Source: Armatimonadota bacterium (GTDB taxonomy: Bacteria > Armatimonadota > UBA5829). Taken from it: a stretch of DNA of 41,035 nucleotides. A model generated the notes under the pieces. It was not told the origin of the DNA. It searched no databases and worked only from the letters and a program-made list of their open reading frames with translations. Where the stretch lies: positions 1 to 41,035 of the forward strand of contig JAPLCU010000187.1 of assembly GCA_026392045.1 (NCBI GenBank). The letters run 5' to 3'. A program made the translations under genes and the position numbers. Below, in pieces: positions 13,685 to 38,630 of the stretch; within the stretch, counting starts at the first letter, position 1; each line of letters starts with the position of its first letter.

Positions 13685-13852
13685 ACTCGCCATCCTGAGG
13701 TACCAACTCGCCATCTTGAGGTACCAACTCGCCATCTTGAGGTACCAACTCGCCATCCTGAGGTACCAACTCGCCATCCTGAGGTACCAACTCGCCATCT
13801 TGAGGTACCAACTCGCCATCCTGAGGTACCAACTCGCCATCCTGAGGCTCTC
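13685..13852. repeat. Eight tandem 21-bp units
   Basis: Units start every 21 bases at 13685, 13706, 13727, 13748, 13769, 13790, 13811 and 13832. The consensus is ACTCGCCATCYTGAGG followed by TACCA. The only internal variation is C/T in CATCYTG, and the last unit changes to GGCTCTC. Because 21 is divisible by 3, all six frames stay open through the array, producing spurious ORFs. No spacers exist, so it is not a CRISPR array. With the following 28 bases, the last unit forms a copy of the dispersed element also found at 38812. Confidence 0.95.
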
Positions 13853-13880
13853 GAAGGATTAGCAGCATGATAAGCCTTCA
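13832..13880. repeat. Dispersed element, family 5, copy 1
   Basis: ACTCGCCATCCTGAGG and CTCTCGAAGGAT are followed by AGCAGCATGATAAGC and TTCAA. The second copy is at 38812-38865, with a few differences. The core CATCCTGAGGCTCTCGAAGGAT resembles a palindromic repeat known from many bacterial genomes. The rest of the 13599-13942 gap holds nothing else that I can identify. Confidence 0.85.
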
Positions 13881-13942
13881 AACTAAATCTTTTTCAATAC
13901 CTTCAGGTAGACCTGCCTGGAGGGATTTTACATGAGGTTTGA

Positions 13943-16530: not shown

Positions 16531-17010
16531 TTATAAACCGTCCTGCAGATTAAGTCCAAGGCCGTCAATATTGGTTACTCTCCAGTAATGGGTTGGAATG
16601 ATAAGGCCATGCCAGCCCTTTTCTTTCGCGAGATATACCGTGAGGTCGCGCTTGTAGATGATGCCTCCGCCTTTATTATCTATAATGTTTAACTTGATAC
16701 TTGCCGTGGCGGCGTTATCGGCTATTATTGTCTTTTCCTGAACATATTCTACTTTGTAATCTTGTTCGGTGCGGAGAGCTTGCGCGGTAATGGCGCGCAG
16801 GTTATCATATTTCATGCCTGCCGGGTCTTTATAATTCTTTGAAACGCAGGAGATTGCTCCATCCAGGTCGCGCTTTTGGATTGCCGCAGCTGCCTGGGAG
16901 AAAAGCGCTTTGATTTTGGCTTGGTCGTCTCTGCGGTCGACGGTGAGATATGCGAATATCACATACCCCAAAGCGATAATTGCCACCATGATCCATATAA
17001 TTGCGCGCAT
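16531..17010 (-). CDS. Membrane-anchored NTF2-like small protein
   Basis: The frame is longer upstream, but the start is taken as ATG at 17010 (MRAIIWIMV), preceded by AGAGGTG. The upstream extension would run antisense through the kinase gene. The 159-residue product has an N-terminal membrane anchor or uncleaved signal (about 3-24). A helical and beta domain beginning KIKALFSQAAAAIQKRDLDGAISCVSKNYKD resembles NTF2/SnoaL-like folds used for small-molecule or protein binding. Function is unknown. It is divergent from the Clp1-like gene with 43 bases between the starts, so they may share a promoter region. Confidence 0.75.
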   Translation of the reverse strand: MRAIIWIMVAIIALGYVIFAYLTVDRRDDQAKIKALFSQAAAAIQKRDLDGAISCVSKNYKDPAGMKYDNLRAITAQALRTEQDYKVEYVQEKTIIADNAATASIKLNIIDNKGGGIIYKRDLTVYLAKEKGWHGLIIPTHYWRVTNIDGLGLNLQDGL

Positions 17011-17053
17011 CTCGTTCACCTCTTTCTGTTTTCTATATATACAAGACTGGTTT

Positions 17054-18160
17054 ATGCAGGAATTTGTTTCATCAATTGGGAAAAGGTTCATTGTGAATAT
17101 TAGTCCCGAATGGGTTAACCTGGTTAATGATATCATATCCGTGCCCGGAGTTGTTATGGTCCTCGGCAATACTGATGTGGGCAAGACGAACTTTTGCCTG
17201 CAGCTTTGTGCAGCCGGATACCAGGCTAGTATACCCACATTTATCGTGGATGCAGACGTTGGGCAGTCTGAAATCGGCGCACCGGGTACGATCAGCATGG
17301 CGATAGTAGATAAGCCCATCGAGGCGCTCTCAGACCTGAAGCCAAAGCGGCTCTATTTTGTGGGTGGAACGAGCCCTATCGGCCACATGATGGAGTGTGC
17401 GATTGGCGTCAAAAAGATGGTTGACGCCGCGCTGGAACTTGGCGCAAAGCTTGTTGTTGTAGACACGACGGGCATGGTGGAAGGCGAACCCGGCAGGAAG
17501 CTGAAAACTTACAAAACCGATCTTGTGAGGCCGAATTATTTAGTCGGCATACAAAAGCGGCGCGAGATAGAGCACCTGCTTGCGCCATTTTCGAAGATCG
17601 AGTCTGTTAAGACGATAGCTTTGAAAGCATCCGCTGAAGCTCGGAGGAAACCAACCGAATTTCGCACCGCTCGCAGACGGCTTAATTTCTATAACCACTT
17701 CCACGATGTGCACGGGCATATTATTCGGATGCAGGATGTTTGCTGCTGGAATACGTGGCTTGGCACGGGCCGCCCGATGAAGTGGCAATATATGAAGAGT
17801 ATCGAAGATGCGCTGAAGTGCAAGGTGCTCCACGCGGAAATCACCGGCGACGGCATCTTTATCGTCTCCGAACGCGCTTGTTCCAAATCTGGTATGGTTA
17901 TTTTAGAGGAAGAGTTTAAGACTAGCAAGATAACTATCATGCCTGGCGAACTTTTTGGAAACTTGCTGGTTGGCCTCGCCGACGAAAACGGCCACACGCT
18001 CAATGTGGGCTTGATTCAGGCTATCGATTTCAAGCAAAAATGCATATTCGTTTTGTCTCCAATGAAGACTATTTCCCCGGTGAGGGTTGTTCAATTTGGC
18101 TCTCTTCGGGTTACAAAGGAAGGCCTGGAGCTTGGCGCTCTGAGGTGGGGTGAGTTTTGA
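17054..18160 (+). CDS. Clp1/Grc3-family polynucleotide 5'-hydroxyl kinase-like protein
   Basis: The 368-residue product has the diagnostic motifs of this mainly eukaryotic and archaeal RNA kinase family. They are the P-loop GNTDVGKT (38-45), DADVGQSEIGAPGTIS (66-81), YFVGGTSPIGH (clasp/lid region) and VVDTTGMVEGEPGRKLKTYKTDLVRP. The C-terminal half (about 210-368) is less conserved. Family members phosphorylate 5'-OH ends of RNA or DNA, and a nucleic-acid substrate here is inferred. ATG 17054 has no ribosome site. GTG 17093 is preceded by GGGAAAAGG and may be the true start. The 3' end overlaps the phosphatase gene by TTGA. Confidence 0.85.
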   Translation: MQEFVSSIGKRFIVNISPEWVNLVNDIISVPGVVMVLGNTDVGKTNFCLQLCAAGYQASIPTFIVDADVGQSEIGAPGTISMAIVDKPIEALSDLKPKRLYFVGGTSPIGHMMECAIGVKKMVDAALELGAKLVVVDTTGMVEGEPGRKLKTYKTDLVRPNYLVGIQKRREIEHLLAPFSKIESVKTIALKASAEARRKPTEFRTARRRLNFYNHFHDVHGHIIRMQDVCCWNTWLGTGRPMKWQYMKSIEDALKCKVLHAEITGDGIFIVSERACSKSGMVILEEEFKTSKITIMPGELFGNLLVGLADENGHTLNVGLIQAIDFKQKCIFVLSPMKTISPVRVVQFGSLRVTKEGLELGALRWGEF

Positions 18161-18798: not shown

Positions 18799-18830
18799 GA
18801 GCCTGCTCCATAGGTTCAGGTATGTGCGGT

Positions 18831-18877
18831 GTTTCGGGATTTGAATGGAGCCGCAGGCGGAATGGAAATCCCGAAAC
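18831..18877. repeat. Dispersed palindrome, family 3, long-loop copy
   Basis: GTTTCGGGATTT (18831-18842) pairs perfectly with AAATCCCGAAAC (18866-18877) across a 23-base loop. Other copies are at 28837 and 32371, and a related one lies inside a coding region at 24382. It lies 33 bases after the phosphatase stop and could also form a transcript end. Confidence 0.85.
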
Positions 18878-20692: not shown

Positions 20693-21565
20693 TTATTCAT
20701 CGCCATCCACCGTCTTTACGCTATTGAGTTTTCTTGTTGGGCTTTCCGGAGGCAAGAAATTATCGCCGGAGACCACACTCCTTCCGGTTTTCTGCTCCAG
20801 CTCAATGCGGGCTTTTTGGGCGATCTTGCCGCCTGTCTTACCTGCTTCTGCATTTTCGGCCATGCCGGTCGCCACCACGCTCTCGGCAATCTGGCGGGTG
20901 GAAAGCTCCGCAAGGGCCGTAAAGATTAGCTCTGCTTCGCTCATGTGGTCCCGCAGGTTCTGGGTCTTGAGACCCTTGATGTCCTTGTGCTTCTTAACTG
21001 AAACGCCGCTCCATTCCTGATGAATGATATTGGTCAGAACGGCATATTCATCTTCTTCGTTTATCTCGTGATCTTTCCAGTAATCGGTGAGTTTGTTGCG
21101 GGTTTCCTGCCCCATCATCCGCTGCTGAATCCATTTCTCGCTTCGTCCGTGCTGCTGCCAGTATTCGCGGGCGCGGTCAAGGGATCGAGCCGGATCGCTC
21201 ATGTCCTGAATCCGCTCGTAACCTACCTTGGCGAGCCAAAGTTTGATGGGTTCCGCTTTGGGACTCGGAACCGATTGTATGATTCGCAGGAGCGTTTCCG
21301 GCGAAGCTGCGTCGGTCAAACGCATCTTTCCGTCCTCGGCAATCATTTTCAACCGGTTACAATCTGTAACCGTTTGACTACCCTCTTTCTTTAGCCGATT
21401 TTTCAGAACTTTCCAGTAATTTCGCGCGGCCTGATGATCTGGCTGCCCAATCAAAGCCGCGATAATATCCACCACCGAGAAAAACCACATTTCGGACCGT
21501 TCATCATAAACCCGGCGAATATTATAACTCTCAAAAACCGCAAGCGCCTGTTCTTTATTCATCAT
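20693..21565 (-). CDS. BRO-N domain protein (phage antirepressor-like)
   Basis: The product has 290 residues. The N-terminal half (MNKEQALAVFESYNIRRVYDERSEMWFFSVVDIIAAL to about residue 120) is a BRO-N/antirepressor domain of the kind found in phages and large DNA viruses and in many bacterial chromosomes. The C-terminal half is helical and charged, with WIQQRMMGQETRNKLTDYW and EEDEYAVLTNIIHQEW. The ending (KTGGKIAQKARIELEQKTGRSVVS) is common in chromosomal BRO-N proteins. ATG 21562 is better spaced from GGAG than 21565. No other phage gene is nearby, so it is probably a lone acquired gene; its role may be DNA-binding. Confidence 0.85.
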   Translation of the reverse strand: MMNKEQALAVFESYNIRRVYDERSEMWFFSVVDIIAALIGQPDHQAARNYWKVLKNRLKKEGSQTVTDCNRLKMIAEDGKMRLTDAASPETLLRIIQSVPSPKAEPIKLWLAKVGYERIQDMSDPARSLDRAREYWQQHGRSEKWIQQRMMGQETRNKLTDYWKDHEINEEDEYAVLTNIIHQEWSGVSVKKHKDIKGLKTQNLRDHMSEAELIFTALAELSTRQIAESVVATGMAENAEAGKTGGKIAQKARIELEQKTGRSVVSGDNFLPPESPTRKLNSVKTVDGDE

Positions 21566-23323: not shown

Positions 23324-23400
23324 AAATTCTTCGCTCGGAACACTTGCTATAGAATACAAGTCTAACAAGCAATCAGCAGAATCACATGGAGGATGTCCCA

Positions 23401-24189
23401 ATGAACGAACAATACAATTCTCAATCTCCGAGTTACAGCGTATTGGCTAATGTTATAGGTGTTATCGTTCTGGTTGTGGTGGCTTTTATGGTGTTACTGC
23501 CATTGTTTTCTGACCACAGTGATGGTGGTCGTCCCAGCAATTGCCAGACTAATCTTAAACAAATTGGCAACTCAATCAAAATGTATCTGGCCGATTGGGA
23601 TGAGACTTATCCAACCAATCGCCCATTCACAACGAATCACAAACTTGACCCCATCAGCAGTAAAGTGAAATTGAGCGCTATTGGATATGATAAGGTTACA
23701 GGAAAGCCGTATAAGTTCCAACATGGCGTGAATTGGGTTGAGGGGCTTTATGCTTATATGGAATCTATCGTCGAGCGAGGTGACACTTCCAGCGTTTGGA
23801 AATGCCCGTCGGCCTCATTGTCGGCGAAATCGAAATCTGCTGAAGTAAGCTATGCATTTAACCGAAATCTTATCGAACAGCCTGAAAAGATCATCAAAAG
23901 CAGCGGCAGATTGATGATGCTTTCTGAATCAGGCCGTTTGCTGGATTCAGAACTAAAACCCAGCAACAAATCAAACAAGGACCCAAAAGCCGTGCCACAG
24001 AATGCTTTCACCAACACGAAACTCCACAGCAACGGCTCCCATATTCTCTTTGCCGATGGGCATGTTAAGCTCTTTAACGCAGAGGCTTATTTTTACAAAG
24101 GCTGCGAATGGGACCCGAAATCTAAGTGCTGGTTCAGTGTCGGTGACAGGAAAACTCTCAACGCTCATTCAATACAAATCACACCCTAA
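23401..24189 (+). CDS. H-X9-DG domain protein with N-terminal membrane anchor
   Basis: The 262-residue product starts at ATG 23401, with GGAGG 9 bases before. It has a single transmembrane segment (about 15-38) followed by CQTNLKQIGNSIKMYLADWDETYP, the common start of the soluble domain in pseudopilin-like H-X9-DG proteins. Near the C-terminus is HSNGSHILFADGHVK, which exactly fits His-X9-Asp-Gly. Such proteins are hugely expanded in Planctomycetes, Lentisphaerae and Armatimonadota. The usual prepilin cleavage signal (G then F-T-L-I-E) is absent, so it is probably not processed by a prepilin peptidase. Function is unknown. A TATAGAAT at 23348-23355 may be its -10 box. Confidence 0.85.
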   Translation: MNEQYNSQSPSYSVLANVIGVIVLVVVAFMVLLPLFSDHSDGGRPSNCQTNLKQIGNSIKMYLADWDETYPTNRPFTTNHKLDPISSKVKLSAIGYDKVTGKPYKFQHGVNWVEGLYAYMESIVERGDTSSVWKCPSASLSAKSKSAEVSYAFNRNLIEQPEKIIKSSGRLMMLSESGRLLDSELKPSNKSNKDPKAVPQNAFTNTKLHSNGSHILFADGHVKLFNAEAYFYKGCEWDPKSKCWFSVGDRKTLNAHSIQITP

Positions 24190-24341
24190 AGGCAATCAAG
24201 CCCCCACGCTTCCGACATTATAATATAGTGCTATGCTTGTATAAGCGCAGCAAGTATAATAGGGAAAATGCTCGTGCGGCACGAAACAGGTGTCGGACGC
24301 TACTGCTGTGTTTTCTAAACCTAAGCTTAAAGAGGTAAATA
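24190..24341 (+). promoter_or_regulatory. A+T-rich spacer with two TATAAT boxes before the diheme gene
   Basis: TATAAT occurs at 24219-24224 and 24255-24260, each without a convincing TTGACA 16-18 bases upstream. GAGGT (24331-24335) is the ribosome site for ATG 24342. I infer an extended-type or activator-dependent promoter. Confidence 0.3.
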
Positions 24342-27300
24342 ATGATGTATTCCATGCTATCCATGCTTTTGAAGCGCGGGGGTTCCGGGACGAGGGCGTC
24401 CCGAAACAACTTGTTGGCGCTTTGCATTTTACTGTTGAGCGTGTTAACCACATCTCTTAACGCTCAGCCGAACTTCGACCTGGGCAAGGAGTTTGCGCGT
24501 ATCAATGTGGATGCGGTGTCGCGCGCTATTGAAGACCTGGCCCGCACCTATCCGGGTGTTTACGATGCCGCCAAACACCGTGCGGCGCTTGCCGCATTCA
24601 AGGCCAAGCGGGAAGAGATTTTTAAATCATTCAATACCGTCGAACCTGAAAAGCTCGCGGAAGCAGAATCGCTGATCAGAGGCGTGCGTATGGCGCTGCT
24701 CGCGAACCCGTTGCTCGACAGCGACAAGATCATGATGATTCGCAGAGGGCGCGGCTACGGTTTTATCTCGCTCAACAGCCACACCCATGTCACCATCGAT
24801 CGCAGCGGCTGGGACGACGCGATTGTAGTCCTCTCAAACCTGCGCGGCAACCCGAAATTTGAAACTATCTACAAGCCCACGAATGACGTTATTGTGCGGG
24901 ACGTTGATCTTGATTTTTCGGGCGACAAAATGCTCTTTTCCAGCCTGGACGCAAAACGCAAATGGGCTGTTTTTCAGGTCAATATAGATGGAACGGGCCT
25001 GAAGCAGATTTCGCCGACCGACTATCCCGATGTTGATTGGTTTGATCCGTGCTATTTGCCGGATGGCCGTATTGTTATGCTCTCGACCGCCTCTTACCAG
25101 GCTCTGCCTTGCGAAAATGGCAGCCGACCTATGGCTCAAACCTATCTTTTGGACCCGAAAACAGGCAACATCCGCCAGCTCACCTATGAGCAGGATTCTG
25201 ACTACACCCCCAGCGTCACCAACGATGGCCGCATTCTCTATACCCGCTGGGAATACTCCGACCTGATGCATTATTACTCGCGCATCCTTATGACGATGAA
25301 CCCGGACGGCACTTCGCAGTTCTCGCTTTACGGGAGCGGTTCATATTACCCGACGGCTCTCTTGCAGTGTAAATCTATACCTGGCAGCACACAAAAGGTT
25401 GTTGGAATCGTCGGCGGGCATCATGATGAGCCGGAAAAGGGCCGTCTAGTGATTTTTGACCCATCGCTCGCCCGCAAATACCCGTTCAAGTTCACTCCTA
25501 CCGATAAAGACTGGGGCCCCGCGGGTTCGTTCCTGCGTATTATGACCGACGTATTACCCGCGGAGCAGACCGGATGCGTCGCAGAGATTCCCGGGTGGGG
25601 CAAGCCCGTGGTTGGAGATGTCTGCGACCGGCAAACAGGAAACCAGTATGAGTTGGGTAAGCCGTATTTCGTATATCCAACGCCCCTGAGCGACAAATAT
25701 TTTTTAGTAAGCGCGAAGCCCTATGGGCAGCCTTGGGGCGTTTATCTGGTAGACACATTCGACAATATGACCCTGCTTGCGGAGGATGACAAAGACGCTT
25801 CGATGTTTGAGCCTATGATGCTCGCTGCCCGCCCTCGCCCGCCGATTCTGCCAGACCGCATCAAGCCTGATTCAAAGACCGCGACCGTGCATATCGCCGA
25901 TATCTACAAAGGCCCCGGTCTTAAGGGCATTCCGCGCGGTTCGGTGAAAAATCTTCGCATTTTCGCATATCACTTCAACTATGTAGGCACCGGCGGCCAT
26001 GCGTCGTTGGGCATTGAAGCCGGTTGGGATATCAAGCGAATACTCGGAACGGCGCCTGTGGAGGCTGACGGTTCTGCGTGTTTCGAGATTCCGTCTAACA
26101 CTCCCATTTCACTTCAACCGCTGGATAGCGACGGCGCCTCGATGCAGCTTATGCGCTCATGGGTTGTCGGTATGCCTGGCGAGCGCGTTTCTTGCGTAGG
26201 ATGCCATGAGGACATTCGGTCCACCATTCCGGCCAGGCGAACAATTGCAGACAACAGCCCTATTCGTAAGATTACTCCTTGGTACGGTGAGGTGAGACCA
26301 TTCGGTTTCGAGCATGAAGTATATCCTGTGGCGCAGAGGTTCTGCGGGGGTTGCCATGATGGTTCACAGCGTGCCGATGGCCTCAAGCCGTGGCCTATGC
26401 GCAATGCTGATGAGACCTATAAAGCCATTCATCCGTATGTCCGCAGGCCCGGGCCTGAGAGCGAGCAGGAAATGCTGAACCCGATGGAGTATCACGTTTC
26501 CACCAGCCCGCTTATTCAGATGCTCAAGAAAGGGCATTATGGCGTGAAGCTGGACCGCGAAGGCTGGGACAGGCTTTACGCCTGGATTGACCTCAATGCG
26601 CCGTTTGTTGGCAGGTGGAACCCCGGCAATTTTGAGGGACGGCCGCAGAAAGAAAGACGCTGCGAATTGGCCAAGATATTCGCCAATATTGATACTTCAC
26701 CCGAGGATGAATACAAGCGCGTGGACGAAGAGATCAAAGCCCGTCCCGCGCCGGTATACGTGAAGCCCGAGGCCGTTCAGTCGCCGCCTAAAGATAATCT
26801 CACAGTTCCCGGCATGCCTGTTCAGCCAAAACCAGGCGAAGGTCGCAAAGTTATTACGCTTCCGGACGGCCAGAAGATGAACTTCGCGCGTATTCCCGCT
26901 GGGCGCTTTATCATGGGCAGCTTGAACGGTTATTCCGATGAATATCCGCGTGCTGTAGTAAATATCGCAAAACCATTTTGGATGAGCGAGACCGAGATCA
27001 CAAACGCTCAGTATAAGAAATTCGACCCCAACCATGATACTCGCTATATAGACCAGCATGGCAAGGACCACAACTTCCCTGGCTATATCGCCAACCATCC
27101 CAATCAGCCGGTGGCGCGTGTCACTTGGAGCCGTGCAATGGATTTCTGCAAGTGGATGAGCAAGTCTCTCGGGGCAAAGGTGAATTTGCCGACCGAAGCG
27201 CAATGGGAATGGGCTGCGAGGGCCGGTTCTCCTAATGATTTCTTCTATGGCGGCGCTAATGATGACTACACCAAATGGGCAAATCTGGCAGGTAGGGAAT

Positions 27301-27683
27301 TGCGCTGGACATCCGTCGGCTTCGAGGGCGGCCCCATTATCATGCACCGCAACCCATATCCACCAGACATGAATTTCCCGCTGCATGATGAGCGTTTCGA
27401 GGACAAGTGGTTCATAGTTGACTATGTAGGTCAATATGAAGCCAGCCCGTGGGGCCTAAAAGATATCGTCGGCAACGTCAACGAGTGGACCCGCTCCAGC
27501 TACAGGCCCTACCCGTATGTTGATAACGATGGCCGAAACGATGGCAGCCTAACCGAGCGAAAGGTAGCTCGCGGCGGTTCATGGGCCAGCAGACCGGTGG
27601 ATGCCGGATCAGCGATTCGACTGCCCTACCAGCCGTATCAGCAGGTATATGATGTCGGCTTCCGTGTGATTATTGAAGAATAA
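24342..27683 (+). CDS. HzsA-related diheme c-type cytochrome fused to a SUMF1-like domain
   Basis: The 1113-residue product begins with a signal peptide (about 20-41, ending LNA) preceded by an unusual Gly/Arg-rich stretch. A helical domain (about 45-150) and a TolB-like beta-propeller region (about 175-420, with repeated DLDFSGDKMLFSS and NDGRILYTRWE blades) follow. A middle domain carries two covalent-heme motifs, CVGCH (618-622) and CGGCH (668-672), as in proteins related to the alpha subunit of hydrazine synthase. Residues about 840-1113 form a SUMF1/formylglycine-generating-like domain (FARIPAGRFIMGS, EITNAQYKKF, LPTEAQWEWAARAGS, GNVNEWTRS, RGGSWASRP, VGFRVI). Its C-terminus has no Cys, so canonical formylglycine activity is unlikely. 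The protein is probably periplasmic. Redox activity is inferred, and hydrazine synthesis is not. Confidence 0.85.
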   Translation: MMYSMLSMLLKRGGSGTRASRNNLLALCILLLSVLTTSLNAQPNFDLGKEFARINVDAVSRAIEDLARTYPGVYDAAKHRAALAAFKAKREEIFKSFNTVEPEKLAEAESLIRGVRMALLANPLLDSDKIMMIRRGRGYGFISLNSHTHVTIDRSGWDDAIVVLSNLRGNPKFETIYKPTNDVIVRDVDLDFSGDKMLFSSLDAKRKWAVFQVNIDGTGLKQISPTDYPDVDWFDPCYLPDGRIVMLSTASYQALPCENGSRPMAQTYLLDPKTGNIRQLTYEQDSDYTPSVTNDGRILYTRWEYSDLMHYYSRILMTMNPDGTSQFSLYGSGSYYPTALLQCKSIPGSTQKVVGIVGGHHDEPEKGRLVIFDPSLARKYPFKFTPTDKDWGPAGSFLRIMTDVLPAEQTGCVAEIPGWGKPVVGDVCDRQTGNQYELGKPYFVYPTPLSDKYFLVSAKPYGQPWGVYLVDTFDNMTLLAEDDKDASMFEPMMLAARPRPPILPDRIKPDSKTATVHIADIYKGPGLKGIPRGSVKNLRIFAYHFNYVGTGGHASLGIEAGWDIKRILGTAPVEADGSACFEIPSNTPISLQPLDSDGASMQLMRSWVVGMPGERVSCVGCHEDIRSTIPARRTIADNSPIRKITPWYGEVRPFGFEHEVYPVAQRFCGGCHDGSQRADGLKPWPMRNADETYKAIHPYVRRPGPESEQEMLNPMEYHVSTSPLIQMLKKGHYGVKLDREGWDRLYAWIDLNAPFVGRWNPGNFEGRPQKERRCELAKIFANIDTSPEDEYKRVDEEIKARPAPVYVKPEAVQSPPKDNLTVPGMPVQPKPGEGRKVITLPDGQKMNFARIPAGRFIMGSLNGYSDEYPRAVVNIAKPFWMSETEITNAQYKKFDPNHDTRYIDQHGKDHNFPGYIANHPNQPVARVTWSRAMDFCKWMSKSLGAKVNLPTEAQWEWAARAGSPNDFFYGGANDDYTKWANLAGRELRWTSVGFEGGPIIMHRNPYPPDMNFPLHDERFEDKWFIVDYVGQYEASPWGLKDIVGNVNEWTRSSYRPYPYVDNDGRNDGSLTERKVARGGSWASRPVDAGSAIRLPYQPYQQVYDVGFRVIIEE
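24382..24407. repeat. Palindrome inside the signal-peptide coding region
   Basis: GTTCCGGGAC (24382-24391) and GTCCCGAAAC (24398-24407) pair at 9 of 10 positions around GAGGGC. It resembles family 3 (GTTTCGGGATTT arms). It encodes the residues GSGTRASRN ahead of the hydrophobic core of the exported cytochrome. Confidence 0.65.
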
Positions 27684-35096: not shown

Positions 35097-35139
35097 CGTT
35101 GTGGGGTAAAGCGAACGTTGTTCTATGAGGAATTGCACG

Positions 35140-36201
35140 ATGGATATAAGAGAGATCGCCACACAAGCGGCTGCAATACGCGCGTCAGATATTTTCATTA
35201 AGACAGGCTCACCACCTATGATACGCCTAAACGGCAAGATCACAACTATTGGCGATTATCCAGTTCTTACTCTTGAAGATGCGCAGATGATGGCTTATGC
35301 GGTTATGAGCCATGAGCAGATAGGCCGGTTTGAGCGCAGGCATGAGCTTGATCTTGCGTTTACTATTGAGGGTGTTGCGCGGTTTAGGGTGAATGTGTAT
35401 CAGCAGCGCGGTGCGCCGGGAATAGTATTGCGCATTATTCCCTTGAGTCTTAGTTCCCTGGAAGACCTTGGGATGCCGCCCGCGATTGCAGGGCTTTGTG
35501 AACATCGGCAGGGACTGGTTTTGGTGACGGGGCCGACTGGCTGCGGCAAGTCGACCACTCTTGCCGCAATGATCGATCTTATAAACTCCACGAGGCGCAG
35601 CAATATCGTTACGGTGGAAGACCCGATCGAGTTTATTCATCATGACAAGATGAGCGTGGTTAATCAGCGCGAGGTGGGCATAGATACGGATTCGTTTACT
35701 GAGGCGCTGAAGTATGTGGTCCGGCAGAGCCCGGATGTGATTCTTATTGGTGAGATGCGCGATGTTGAGACGATGAACGTCGCATTGGCCGCTTCTGAGA
35801 CGGGACATCTGGTGCTTTCGACTGTGCACACATGCAGCGCAGCGGAGACTTTGGATCGTATTATGAATATGTTCCCGCCTCATGATAAACCGCAGGTTTG
35901 TATGCGGTTGGCGGTGGCGCTGAAGGGCGTTGTCTCCCAGAAACTGGTTCCTAAGGCGGACGGCGCTGGCAGAGTTGCTGCGGTGGAGATTTTGATTGCG
36001 AACCCGACCGTGAGCAAGTTGCTTGAGGAAGGCCGCTCCGGGCAGATATACACAGCCATTTCCGAAGGTCAGTTTTGGGAAATGCAGACTATGAACCAGT
36101 GCTTGGCGAAATACTGCATGGATGGAATAATTACCGAAGATGAGGCCCTTGCACATGCGGGCAACTACACTGAACTCAAGCAGATGCTTCGCAGGAAATA
36201 G
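35140..36201 (+). CDS. PilT-family ATPase, divergent paralogue (PilT-1)
   Basis: The 353-residue product starts at ATG 35140 (GAGG 9 bases before). An N-terminal PAS-like domain with SDIFIKTGSPPMIRLNGKI leads into a RecA-like ATPase with Walker A GPTGCGKS (131-138), the Asp box TVEDPIEF, Walker B VILIGEMRD and the His box HLVLSTVHT. PilT ATPases power pilus retraction at the inner membrane. The usual C-terminal AIRNLIRE motif, needed for retraction in characterised PilT, reads VSKLLEEG here. This copy may therefore be a PilU-like accessory or have another role. Confidence 0.9.
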   Translation: MDIREIATQAAAIRASDIFIKTGSPPMIRLNGKITTIGDYPVLTLEDAQMMAYAVMSHEQIGRFERRHELDLAFTIEGVARFRVNVYQQRGAPGIVLRIIPLSLSSLEDLGMPPAIAGLCEHRQGLVLVTGPTGCGKSTTLAAMIDLINSTRRSNIVTVEDPIEFIHHDKMSVVNQREVGIDTDSFTEALKYVVRQSPDVILIGEMRDVETMNVALAASETGHLVLSTVHTCSAAETLDRIMNMFPPHDKPQVCMRLAVALKGVVSQKLVPKADGAGRVAAVEILIANPTVSKLLEEGRSGQIYTAISEGQFWEMQTMNQCLAKYCMDGIITEDEALAHAGNYTELKQMLRRK

Positions 36202-36274
36202 GTTTTTTGATCATTATGGGAACTGCTTGGTCCCTGAAGTCGTCTACATTAGAGAGACTTATGCATTTTTGTAA

Positions 36275-36422
36275 CTGGATCGCCCTGGAAATCACTGGAT
36301 CGCCCTGGAAATCACTGGATCGCCCTGGAAATCACTGGATCGCCCTGGAAATCTATTCCAGGGCGCAGCAGAGTAGATATTGGATCGCCCTGGAAATCTA
36401 TTCCAGGGCGCAGTAGAGTAGA
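36275..36422. repeat. 20-bp tandem array and two perfect hairpins between pilT genes
   Basis: CTGGATCGCCCTGGAAATCA occurs four times in tandem (36275-36354), the last unit changing at its end. There it becomes the left arm of a perfect hairpin CGCCCTGGAA-ATCTA-TTCCAGGGCG (36341-36365). A second hairpin copy lies at 36386-36410, within a 42-45-bp direct repeat ending CAGTAGAGTAGA. Nothing else is seen between the two genes except the ribosome site of the next one. Confidence 0.93.
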
Positions 36423-36468
36423 CATTTTGCATTTTTGACTTTTAACCCAAAGTAGGAGTGATATAAAG

Positions 36469-37542
36469 TTGCTGTTAGACCAACTTCTCACGGAACTGGT
36501 GGCGCACGAAGGTTCCAACTTGCACTTAAGATATGGTGAGCCGCCGATTATGCGCATTCATGGAAAGCTCATACGCACTGATTATGATAGAATCGAGCGG
36601 GTGGAGGATTTAGTCTACCCAATTTTGAGCGATGATAGGCGACAACGGCTTGAAGAGTTTTGGGAACTCGACACGGCTTATGCAATCAAGGATGTTGCTC
36701 GGTTCCGCGTCAACTGCTTCAAGCAGCGCGGGCATATGGGTACTGTGTTCCAAGTGATCCCAATCAATATCAGGACAATTGATGAATTGGGATTACCTCA
36801 GGTTACCAAAGAGATTTGCAAGAAGCCTAGAGGTTTGGTTTTGGTAACGGGCCCTACGGGGTGTGGTAAATCGACGACTCTTGCGGCTATGATCAACCAA
36901 ATTAATATTACGAAACATGATCATATTGTAACTGTTGAGGATCCTATCGAGTTTGTTCATCTAGATAAGCTGTGTGCGGTAAATCAGCGCGCAGTAGAGG
37001 TGGATACACACTCGTTTGCTGAGGCTTTGAAGCACGTTCTAAGGCAGGACCCGGATGTTATTCTGATTGGTGAATTAAGAGACCTTGAAACGATTGCGCT
37101 GGCTATCACAGCGGCGGAAACCGGGCACCTTGTGTTCGGAACGCTCCATACTACAGATGCGCCGCAGACTATAGACCGCGTTATTGACGTTTTTCCACCT
37201 GAACAGCAGCCCCAGATTAGAATGCAGCTTTCGGTTACTATCCAGGCGGTTATTTCTCAGCAGCTATTGCCGAGGATTGATTCGCAAGGAGGCCGAGTTG
37301 CTGCATTTGAGGTTATGATGGCGACTCAGGCTATTCGTTCTCTGATCCGTGAGGGTAAGACGCATCAGCTTTATTCAGATATCCAGGCAGGCGGCGAGCA
37401 TGGAATGATCTCACTCGATCAATACCTGCTTGGGCTGCTCAAAGAACGGCTGATCAGTTATGATGATGCTATCGCGAAATCCTCTAACCCGCGAGAGCTG
37501 GAGAGAATGGCGGCTAAGGCGTTTGCGGTGGTGAAGAAATGA
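36469..37542 (+). CDS. pilT: Pilus retraction ATPase PilT (PilT-2)
   Basis: The 357-residue product starts at TTG 36469, 9 bases after AGGAG. It has SNLHLRYGEPPIMRIHGKL, Walker A GPTGCGKS, VEDPIEF, VILIGELRDLETI, HLVFGTLHTTDAPQTIDRVID and the retraction motif AIRSLIREGK close to the canonical AIRNLIRE. It hydrolyses ATP to depolymerise the pilus. Its end overlaps the next pilT by 4 bases (ATGA), so the two are co-translated and may form hetero-oligomers or work in turn. Confidence 0.94.
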   Translation: MLLDQLLTELVAHEGSNLHLRYGEPPIMRIHGKLIRTDYDRIERVEDLVYPILSDDRRQRLEEFWELDTAYAIKDVARFRVNCFKQRGHMGTVFQVIPINIRTIDELGLPQVTKEICKKPRGLVLVTGPTGCGKSTTLAAMINQINITKHDHIVTVEDPIEFVHLDKLCAVNQRAVEVDTHSFAEALKHVLRQDPDVILIGELRDLETIALAITAAETGHLVFGTLHTTDAPQTIDRVIDVFPPEQQPQIRMQLSVTIQAVISQQLLPRIDSQGGRVAAFEVMMATQAIRSLIREGKTHQLYSDIQAGGEHGMISLDQYLLGLLKERLISYDDAIAKSSNPRELERMAAKAFAVVKK

Positions 37543-38630
37543 GTAATGAGTTTGTAGATAATCTGTTGAGACGCACATACGATTTAGATGGGTCGGACCT
37601 GCATCTTAAGACTGATAATCATCCTTTGATTCGTGTGTATGGTGATCTTCACAAGCAAACTGATCAGCCGATCCTCACGCCCGAAATGACCAGGAAAATT
37701 GCATACAATATTATGAACGAGCAGCAGCAGAAGCGCTTTGAAGCCAATTTAGAGATGGACCTGGCTTATGAAATTAAGGGGCTGGCACGTTTTCGTACTA
37801 ATATGATGATGCAGCGTGGTCATGTCGGTATTGTCATGAGGCTTATTCCAAGCATTGTCAAGACAATGGAAGAGCTTTTCATGCCTCCGGTGTGCAAATA
37901 TTTCTGTGAGAGACCGAGAGGTATGGTTCTGGTGACGGGGCCTACGGGGTCTGGTAAATCGACCACGTTGGCTGCTATGATCAATTATATCAACACCGAG
38001 CGATCAGAGCACATTATGACGGTCGAGGATCCTATAGAATTTGTGCATGAGTGTAAGAACTCTCTGATAAATCAGCGTGAACTGGGCACTGATACACTAT
38101 CTTTCGCGAATGCTTTGAAATATGTCTTGAGGCAGAACCCGGACGTGATTTTGGTAGGTGAAATGAGAGACCTTGAGACAATTCACCTAGCCATCACGGC
38201 GGCGGAAACCGGTCACCTTGTATTTGCAACTCTGCATACTCCAGACGCAGTGCAGACTGTGGACCGCATTATCGACGTATTCCCAACCTATCAGCAATCG
38301 CAGATCAGGCAGCAGTTGGCTAACAACATGATCGGAATTGTATCGCAGAACCTGCTGCGGCGCGCTGACGGCAAAGGGCGAATTGCGGCGTTTGAGACGC
38401 TTGTGAATACGCCCGCTATCAGAAACCTTATTCGCGAGGGAAAGACATTCCAGGTTACCTCGATTATTCAGACCGGTGGTAAGCAAGGAATGATGACCCT
38501 GGACCAGTATTTGGGTTCATTGGTCAAGAAGGGGCTGATTACTATGGCTGAGGGATTATCGAGAGCAAGCAATGTGAGAGAGTTTAATGCATTCCTGGAA
38601 GAAGGCTCTGGCAAAGCGCCTTCGAGGTAG
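37539..38630 (+). CDS. pilT: Pilus retraction ATPase PilT (PilT-3)
   Basis: The 363-residue product has SDLHLKTDNHPLIRVYGDL, Walker A GPTGSGKS, VEDPIEFVHECKNSLINQRE, VILVGEMRDLETIHLAI and HLVFATLHTPDAVQTVDRIID. The retraction motif AIRNLIREGK is exactly as in classical PilT. This makes it the most canonical of the three copies. The C-terminal tail (about 345-363) is short and polar. ATG 37539 overlaps the stop of PilT-2. Confidence 0.95.
   Translation: MSNEFVDNLLRRTYDLDGSDLHLKTDNHPLIRVYGDLHKQTDQPILTPEMTRKIAYNIMNEQQQKRFEANLEMDLAYEIKGLARFRTNMMMQRGHVGIVMRLIPSIVKTMEELFMPPVCKYFCERPRGMVLVTGPTGSGKSTTLAAMINYINTERSEHIMTVEDPIEFVHECKNSLINQRELGTDTLSFANALKYVLRQNPDVILVGEMRDLETIHLAITAAETGHLVFATLHTPDAVQTVDRIIDVFPTYQQSQIRQQLANNMIGIVSQNLLRRADGKGRIAAFETLVNTPAIRNLIREGKTFQVTSIIQTGGKQGMMTLDQYLGSLVKKGLITMAEGLSRASNVREFNAFLEEGSGKAPSR

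Follow-up and report, generated by a model that had tools for sequence, protein, structure and literature searches.

The 41,035-nucleotide window analysed in this study (contig JAPLCU010000187.1, assembly GCA_026392045.1, from an Armatimonadota bacterium of the GTDB lineage UBA5829) carries on its forward strand a full-length reading frame, 24342-27683, that is open throughout and encodes an HzsA-like diheme protein of 1113 residues fused to an FGE-like domain. A likely ribosome-binding site, AGAGG (24331-24335), lies six bases before the ATG. The nearest upstream gene stops at 24189, the downstream gene is on the opposite strand, and no neighbor at operon distance was found within the window. 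The protein is predicted to begin with a Sec signal peptide (residues 1-41, 24342-24464), recognized by eye as a basic and then hydrophobic stretch ending in SLNA before Q; AlphaFold pLDDT is low in this region, at residues 1-17 and 35-42. Next come a helical region (residues 42-126, 24465-24719, from the AlphaFold secondary structure), a beta-propeller of the TolB/HzsA type (about residues 127-500, 24720-25841), and the HZS_alpha middle domain (residues 533-623, 25938-26210; PF18582, E 2.6e-31). The first CxxCH motif, CVGCH (residues 618-622, 26193-26207), is equivalent to the heme alphaI site, and the second, CGGCH (residues 668-672, 26343-26357), to the heme alphaII site. His732 (26535-26537), in a KGHxxVxL motif, is a candidate distal ligand of the second heme. 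The C-terminus is formed by an FGE-sulfatase (SUMF1-like) domain (residues 850-1110, 26889-27671; PF03781, E 1.8e-38), where the FGE active-site position, RGGSWASRPVDA (27570-27605), has Ser as the equivalent of Cys336 and Ala as that of Cys341.

The preliminary description of this DNA had proposed a propeller, a diheme HzsA-like core, and a SUMF1-like domain in one protein, with both CxxCH motifs between the propeller and the FGE-like domain. Pfam, AlphaFold, and Foldseek agree on this layout. HZS_alpha scored 108.5 bits (Pfam cut-off 26.6) and FGE-sulfatase 133.1 bits (cut-off 23.3); the profile check suggested at that stage thus returned matches to both families far above the cut-offs. The AlphaFold model (pLDDT 88.8, pTM 0.86, from an alignment of 38 homologs) has both HzsA chains of 5C2V as its top Foldseek matches (E 2e-23), followed on the C-terminus by the PvdO, FGE, and TvpA folds. 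A direct sequence comparison finds only weak similarity to HzsA (5c2v, E 2.7e-4), but a profile built from 15 relatives aligns with Kuenenia HzsA (5c2v_A) across the propeller, the middle domain, and the second heme site at E 9.2e-35. Sequence and fold comparison establish that the N-terminal three quarters of the protein is an HzsA homolog with both heme-attachment motifs. Together with the signal peptide, these motifs suggest an exported diheme c-type protein, as had been claimed.

The window contains several other features. A tandem array with a unit like actcgccatcYtgaggtacca lies at 13690-13890, with at least 45 matches dispersed across the genome, and a REP-like palindromic repeat of about 50 bases (tttcgggattt...aaatcccgaaa) lies at 18827-18877, with at least 41 genome matches. 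A further palindrome, of 23 bases (24383-24405), falls within the signal-peptide coding region; a repeat origin was rejected for it, as the genome holds only two copies. A CLP1-type polynucleotide kinase P-loop domain (16910-18160, E 1.5e-35) is encoded here in a bacterium, a BRO-N domain protein (20693-21565, reverse strand) matching the phage family phrog_15286 (E 9e-85) is a lone phage-type gene, and three type II/IV secretion ATPase (PilT/PilB-like) genes occur in succession at 35125-38630.

To define the family, genome contigs were scanned with eight fused homologs as queries, which gave at least 552 matches. The best 80 of these form the fused-locus set, and motifs were counted in 73 of the 80; in the other seven loci the gene was cut or hidden by a longer antisense reading frame. 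As labeled in their records, where some organism names look doubtful, the best 80 of the at least 552 belong to Verrucomicrobiota, Kiritimatiellota, Lentisphaerota, Planctomycetota, Hydrogenedentota, Armatimonadota, and Bacteroidota, with one Bryobacterales MAG; the genomes are drafts or MAGs, including bins with an estimated 2% contamination. The fusion is present in about six bacterial phyla, and its 73 full-length homologs rule out an artifact of a single assembly. In the tree, the closest homologs of the window protein among the matches listed are from Verrucomicrobiota and Lentisphaerota MAGs. Both CxxCH motifs, which the preliminary description had allowed might vary among homologs, are found in 73/73 fused homologs at a distance of 49-55 residues, and all of them have a [KRTA]GH motif beyond the second heme site. 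The pair is therefore not a chance occurrence. His732 is invariant in 38/38 aligned sequences. The genome of the window gene has nine HZS_alpha reading frames; large expansions or tandem runs of HzsA-like genes are also seen in G041 (26 HZS_alpha matches), L084, L126, L138, and L152.

The window was described earlier as lacking a hydrazine synthase beta or gamma gene, a cytochrome maturation gene, and an electron partner. That is correct for the window only, since such genes are found elsewhere in the genome. Sequence and fold comparison demonstrate a single fused beta-gamma homolog (G000:C28:68485-70197), not beside the window gene, which combines a propeller with a CCP/MauG-type diheme part, as well as c-type maturation genes (ccmB, ccmC, and ccmF/nrfE-like, on C149). 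This beta-gamma protein matches NCBIfam hydrazine_BC at E 8.7e-54; its matches to the HzsB and HzsC models do not reach the equivalog cut-offs. A profile of its relatives matches HzsB (E 8e-48) and HzsC (E 4.5e-40), and the relatives also match CCP_MauG (PF03150) and CCP structures. A strong beta-gamma match (E<1e-60) occurred in 6/7 genomes with HZS_alpha and in 0/54 without it (Fisher p 1.3e-7, a value that overstates independence because the genomes are related). Beta-gamma genes were found in 9/80 fused loci (the best 80 of at least 552), mostly directly adjoining the fused gene, and also in G054; by coordinates they lie near unfused alphas in G015, G028, G041, and G054. With draft or MAG genomes and many short contigs, these counts of adjacency are lower bounds. 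L105 and L158 are examples of such adjoining pairs; in L105 the genes run in the order beta-gamma, chorismatase/Rid-like, fusion, ResB, and CcsB, so that genes for c-type maturation belong to the cluster.

A chorismatase (FkbO/Hyg5)/Rid-like gene, scoring below the chorismatase cut-off, recurs near HZS_alpha and beta-gamma genes (L105:1891-3207, L127:7861-9105, L148:13086-14222, L158:12975-14069, L049:12147-13316, L068:1971-3338), and in the genome of the window one such gene sits beside an HZS_alpha paralog. A conserved operon around the window gene was considered but does not hold: nothing homologous to the upstream DUF1559/pseudopilin-like gene (23386-24189) lies beside the relatives, and blastn of the window against L079-L082 found only the fusion gene itself in common.

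The same data bear on whether the protein works with a beta-gamma unit at all. It may instead be a non-catalytic surface or periplasmic cytochrome, with an electron-transfer or structural role and no beta-gamma partner, whose propeller and FGE-like domain serve only as anchors. The gene is indeed solitary in the window and in its nearest relatives (L079-L082), which have no beta-gamma beside them, and one beta-gamma stands against nine alphas in this genome. However, the propeller residues C257, H310, H360, and H361 are invariant in 38 aligned sequences that keep the whole HZS_alpha domain, which resembles a maintained active site, and beta-gamma co-occurs with the family at the genome level. 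A lone cytochrome is therefore considered unlikely; the putative partnership of the window protein with beta-gamma is drawn from its family and its genome.

Residues 850-1110 share the FGE subclass of the C-type lectin fold with FGE/SUMF1, SUMF2, PvdO, and the DGR protein TvpA (TM 0.60-0.72). According to PMC5006420, the FGE class serves as a general-purpose fold for binding. One alternative is that the domain is a PvdO-like oxidase that lacks the Cys pair, making the whole protein an oxidase with two centers. PvdO (5hha) is the best-scoring FGE-class Foldseek match (TM 0.71), and the NCBIfam PvdO model gives E 3.1e-18, but with a score of 65.9 that falls below the cut-off of 500; moreover, TvpA, a binding protein, is equally similar (TM 0.72). 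A PvdO-like activity is thus doubtful. Still less probable, to the point of being very improbable, is an active FGE-like domain that forms formylglycine in sulfatases or carries out EgtB/OvoA-type sulfoxide synthesis, with the hemes giving or taking electrons. The strong PF03781 match, the presence of FGE and EgtB among the Foldseek matches, and sulfatase genes near some homologs would agree with it. However, FGE relies on Cys336 and Cys341 for its activity (PMC4505483), and among the 66 homologs with a readable motif the equivalent of Cys336 is Cys in none and that of Cys341 in six. No Pfam match to a DinB-type domain, as in EgtB, was found in the fusion protein, the NCBIfam EgtB score (51 bits) is below its cut-off of 360, and about 20 further FGE-domain matches occur in the genome. 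The sulfatase-activation or ergothioneine-like chemistry suggested in the preliminary description is accordingly not borne out. As Cys336 is never retained in the readable motifs, the FGE-like part looks dead as an FGE, and its loss of the cysteines and its fold make substrate binding, also raised in that description, the favored function.

The key residues of hydrazine synthase were compared in the same way. According to PMC12758564 and PMC12607021, Tyr591 is the proximal ligand of heme alphaI in that enzyme, and His587 and Cys303 bind zinc. At the Tyr591 position (H+4 after the first CxxCH), the window protein has Arg, and none of the 73 homologs has Tyr; N/R/S/L and others are found instead. 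The Cys303 position aligns to a Gly/Ser stretch (331-334); in the relevant part of PMC12758564, Cys303 is likewise described as absent in Scalinduaceae, and non-anammox homologs as lacking key residues. The part of HzsC that holds gammaCys165 and gammaAsp168, residues at heme gammaI, is missing from the beta-gamma profile, and the NCBIfam hydrazine_alpha score is 38.8 bits against an equivalog cut-off of 800. The homology to HzsA and the beta-gamma homolog in the genome would suit a true hydrazine synthase alpha subunit bearing one more domain, in an organism that forms hydrazine from ammonium and either NO or hydroxylamine, but this reading can be set aside almost entirely in view of these losses.

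A phylogeny of the fusion, also proposed in the preliminary description, placed all fused sequences in one clade of the HzsA-part tree (SH-aLRT 99), with support of 99/99 in a careful run without long branches. The trees thus indicate that the fusion arose once. In the sister branch, G035, an unfused alpha gene is followed by a separate exported FGE-like gene whose start overlaps the alpha stop (TGATG). The FGE-like protein of G035 is sister to the fused FGE-like domains (support 97) and has the same RGGSW-DRP motif. A sequencing frameshift was considered for this gene pair, as the frames do differ; it was rejected since the downstream gene starts at TGATG and encodes a signal peptide of its own. 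In the branch beyond, G015, the unfused alpha is followed by a beta-gamma gene. The HzsA-like and FGE-like partners were either neighbors before fusion or split once in the G035 line; the trees accommodate both orders, and the second signal peptide in G035 favors separate genes first.

The heads attached to the HzsA-like core appear to be exchangeable. NPCBM and laminin-G/ConA are carbohydrate-associated modules; a Parabacteroides HzsA-like protein has both FGE-like and NPCBM heads, and one HzsA-like paralog of G041 carries Laminin_G_3. In the genome of the window, the paralog L049:8291-12007 (G000:C123) has the HZS_alpha core with a C-terminal Mal s 1-like propeller that replaces the FGE-like domain. 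In Parabacteroides faecis JCM 18682 (L155:2574-12819), SusC, SusD, an NPCBM-HzsA-FGE fusion, and a lyase-like protein are encoded in order, the last with weak similarity to the BT3328 hyaluronate lyase family (E 2.9e-9). Other members repeatedly have sulfatase, gluconolactonase-like, 3-keto-disaccharide hydrolase, and Gfo/Idh/MocA genes nearby, which are common in these phyla anyway. This genomic context is a hint that the protein acts in connection with sugars and not in hydrazine synthesis.

With slightly better than even confidence, we favor an exported diheme c-type protein that acts as the alpha-like subunit of an HZS-like redox complex, does not make hydrazine, and carries a glycan-directed FGE-like head. 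The alpha-like subunit would dock on a shared beta-gamma unit, with heme alphaI as the substrate site and heme alphaII as the electron-transfer site, and electrons may enter or leave via the MauG-like hemes of beta-gamma. The FGE-like domain, having lost FGE catalysis, would be a binding head of the C-type lectin fold that brings the substrate, most likely a glycan or a glycan-linked molecule, to the heme core. The alpha paralogs would have different heads on the same core, and thus one beta-gamma could serve many alphas. This genome has a single beta-gamma for nine alphas, and G041 about two for its 26 HZS_alpha matches. A wider and more tentative possibility, well short of probable, is that a large family of modular HZS-like heme complexes participates in glycan use, in which a shared MauG-like beta-gamma combines with many alphas bearing FGE-like C-type lectin-fold, NPCBM, laminin-G, or propeller heads, a chorismatase/Rid-like enzyme acts on the product, and the hydrazine synthase of anammox is a specialized offshoot of a carbohydrate-directed redox machine.

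Hydrazine synthase was long regarded as standing alone; relatives have come to light in recent work, with no role assigned to them, and hzs-like genes are also reported in PMC10732223. A concrete, testable hint of roles for HZS-like proteins outside anammox comes from the fusion with its one-time origin, the gene pair that is split in the sister lineage, the interchangeable heads, and the sugar loci, and the same evidence bears on where hydrazine synthase came from. The SusCD locus with the NPCBM-HzsA-FGE fusion sits in a cultured gut bacterium. Our literature search returned no paper linking hydrazine synthase with an FGE domain or with chorismatase; three that mention the enzyme together with polysaccharide utilization seem, from titles and abstracts, to be unrelated. 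FGE-type fusions and carbohydrate-binding heads are not mentioned in the relevant passages of PMC12758564.

In sum, the window protein resembles HzsA of Kuenenia stuttgartiensis (5C2V) in its propeller, HZS_alpha middle domain, and two CxxCH sites; in contrast to HzsA, it lacks Tyr591 and Cys303, has an extra FGE-like domain, and belongs to a large set of paralogs. Compared with FGE/SUMF1, its C-terminal domain is without the catalytic Cys pair and is joined to a heme protein. The gamma half of the putative partner is like the MauG/bacterial cytochrome c peroxidase family, whereas beta-gamma relatives, unlike MauG/CCP, carry a fused propeller and are related to HzsB-HzsC. Unlike in hydrazine synthase, beta and gamma form one fused gene, encoded elsewhere in the genome. 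HzsA homologs beside fused beta-gamma are likewise described, in the relevant passages of Hagglund et al. 2025 (PMC12758564), for the non-anammox HzsA-like and beta-gamma-like clades I-IV, and as in that family, the window protein is an HZS_alpha homolog devoid of the key residues of hydrazine synthase, with a beta-gamma homolog in its genome.
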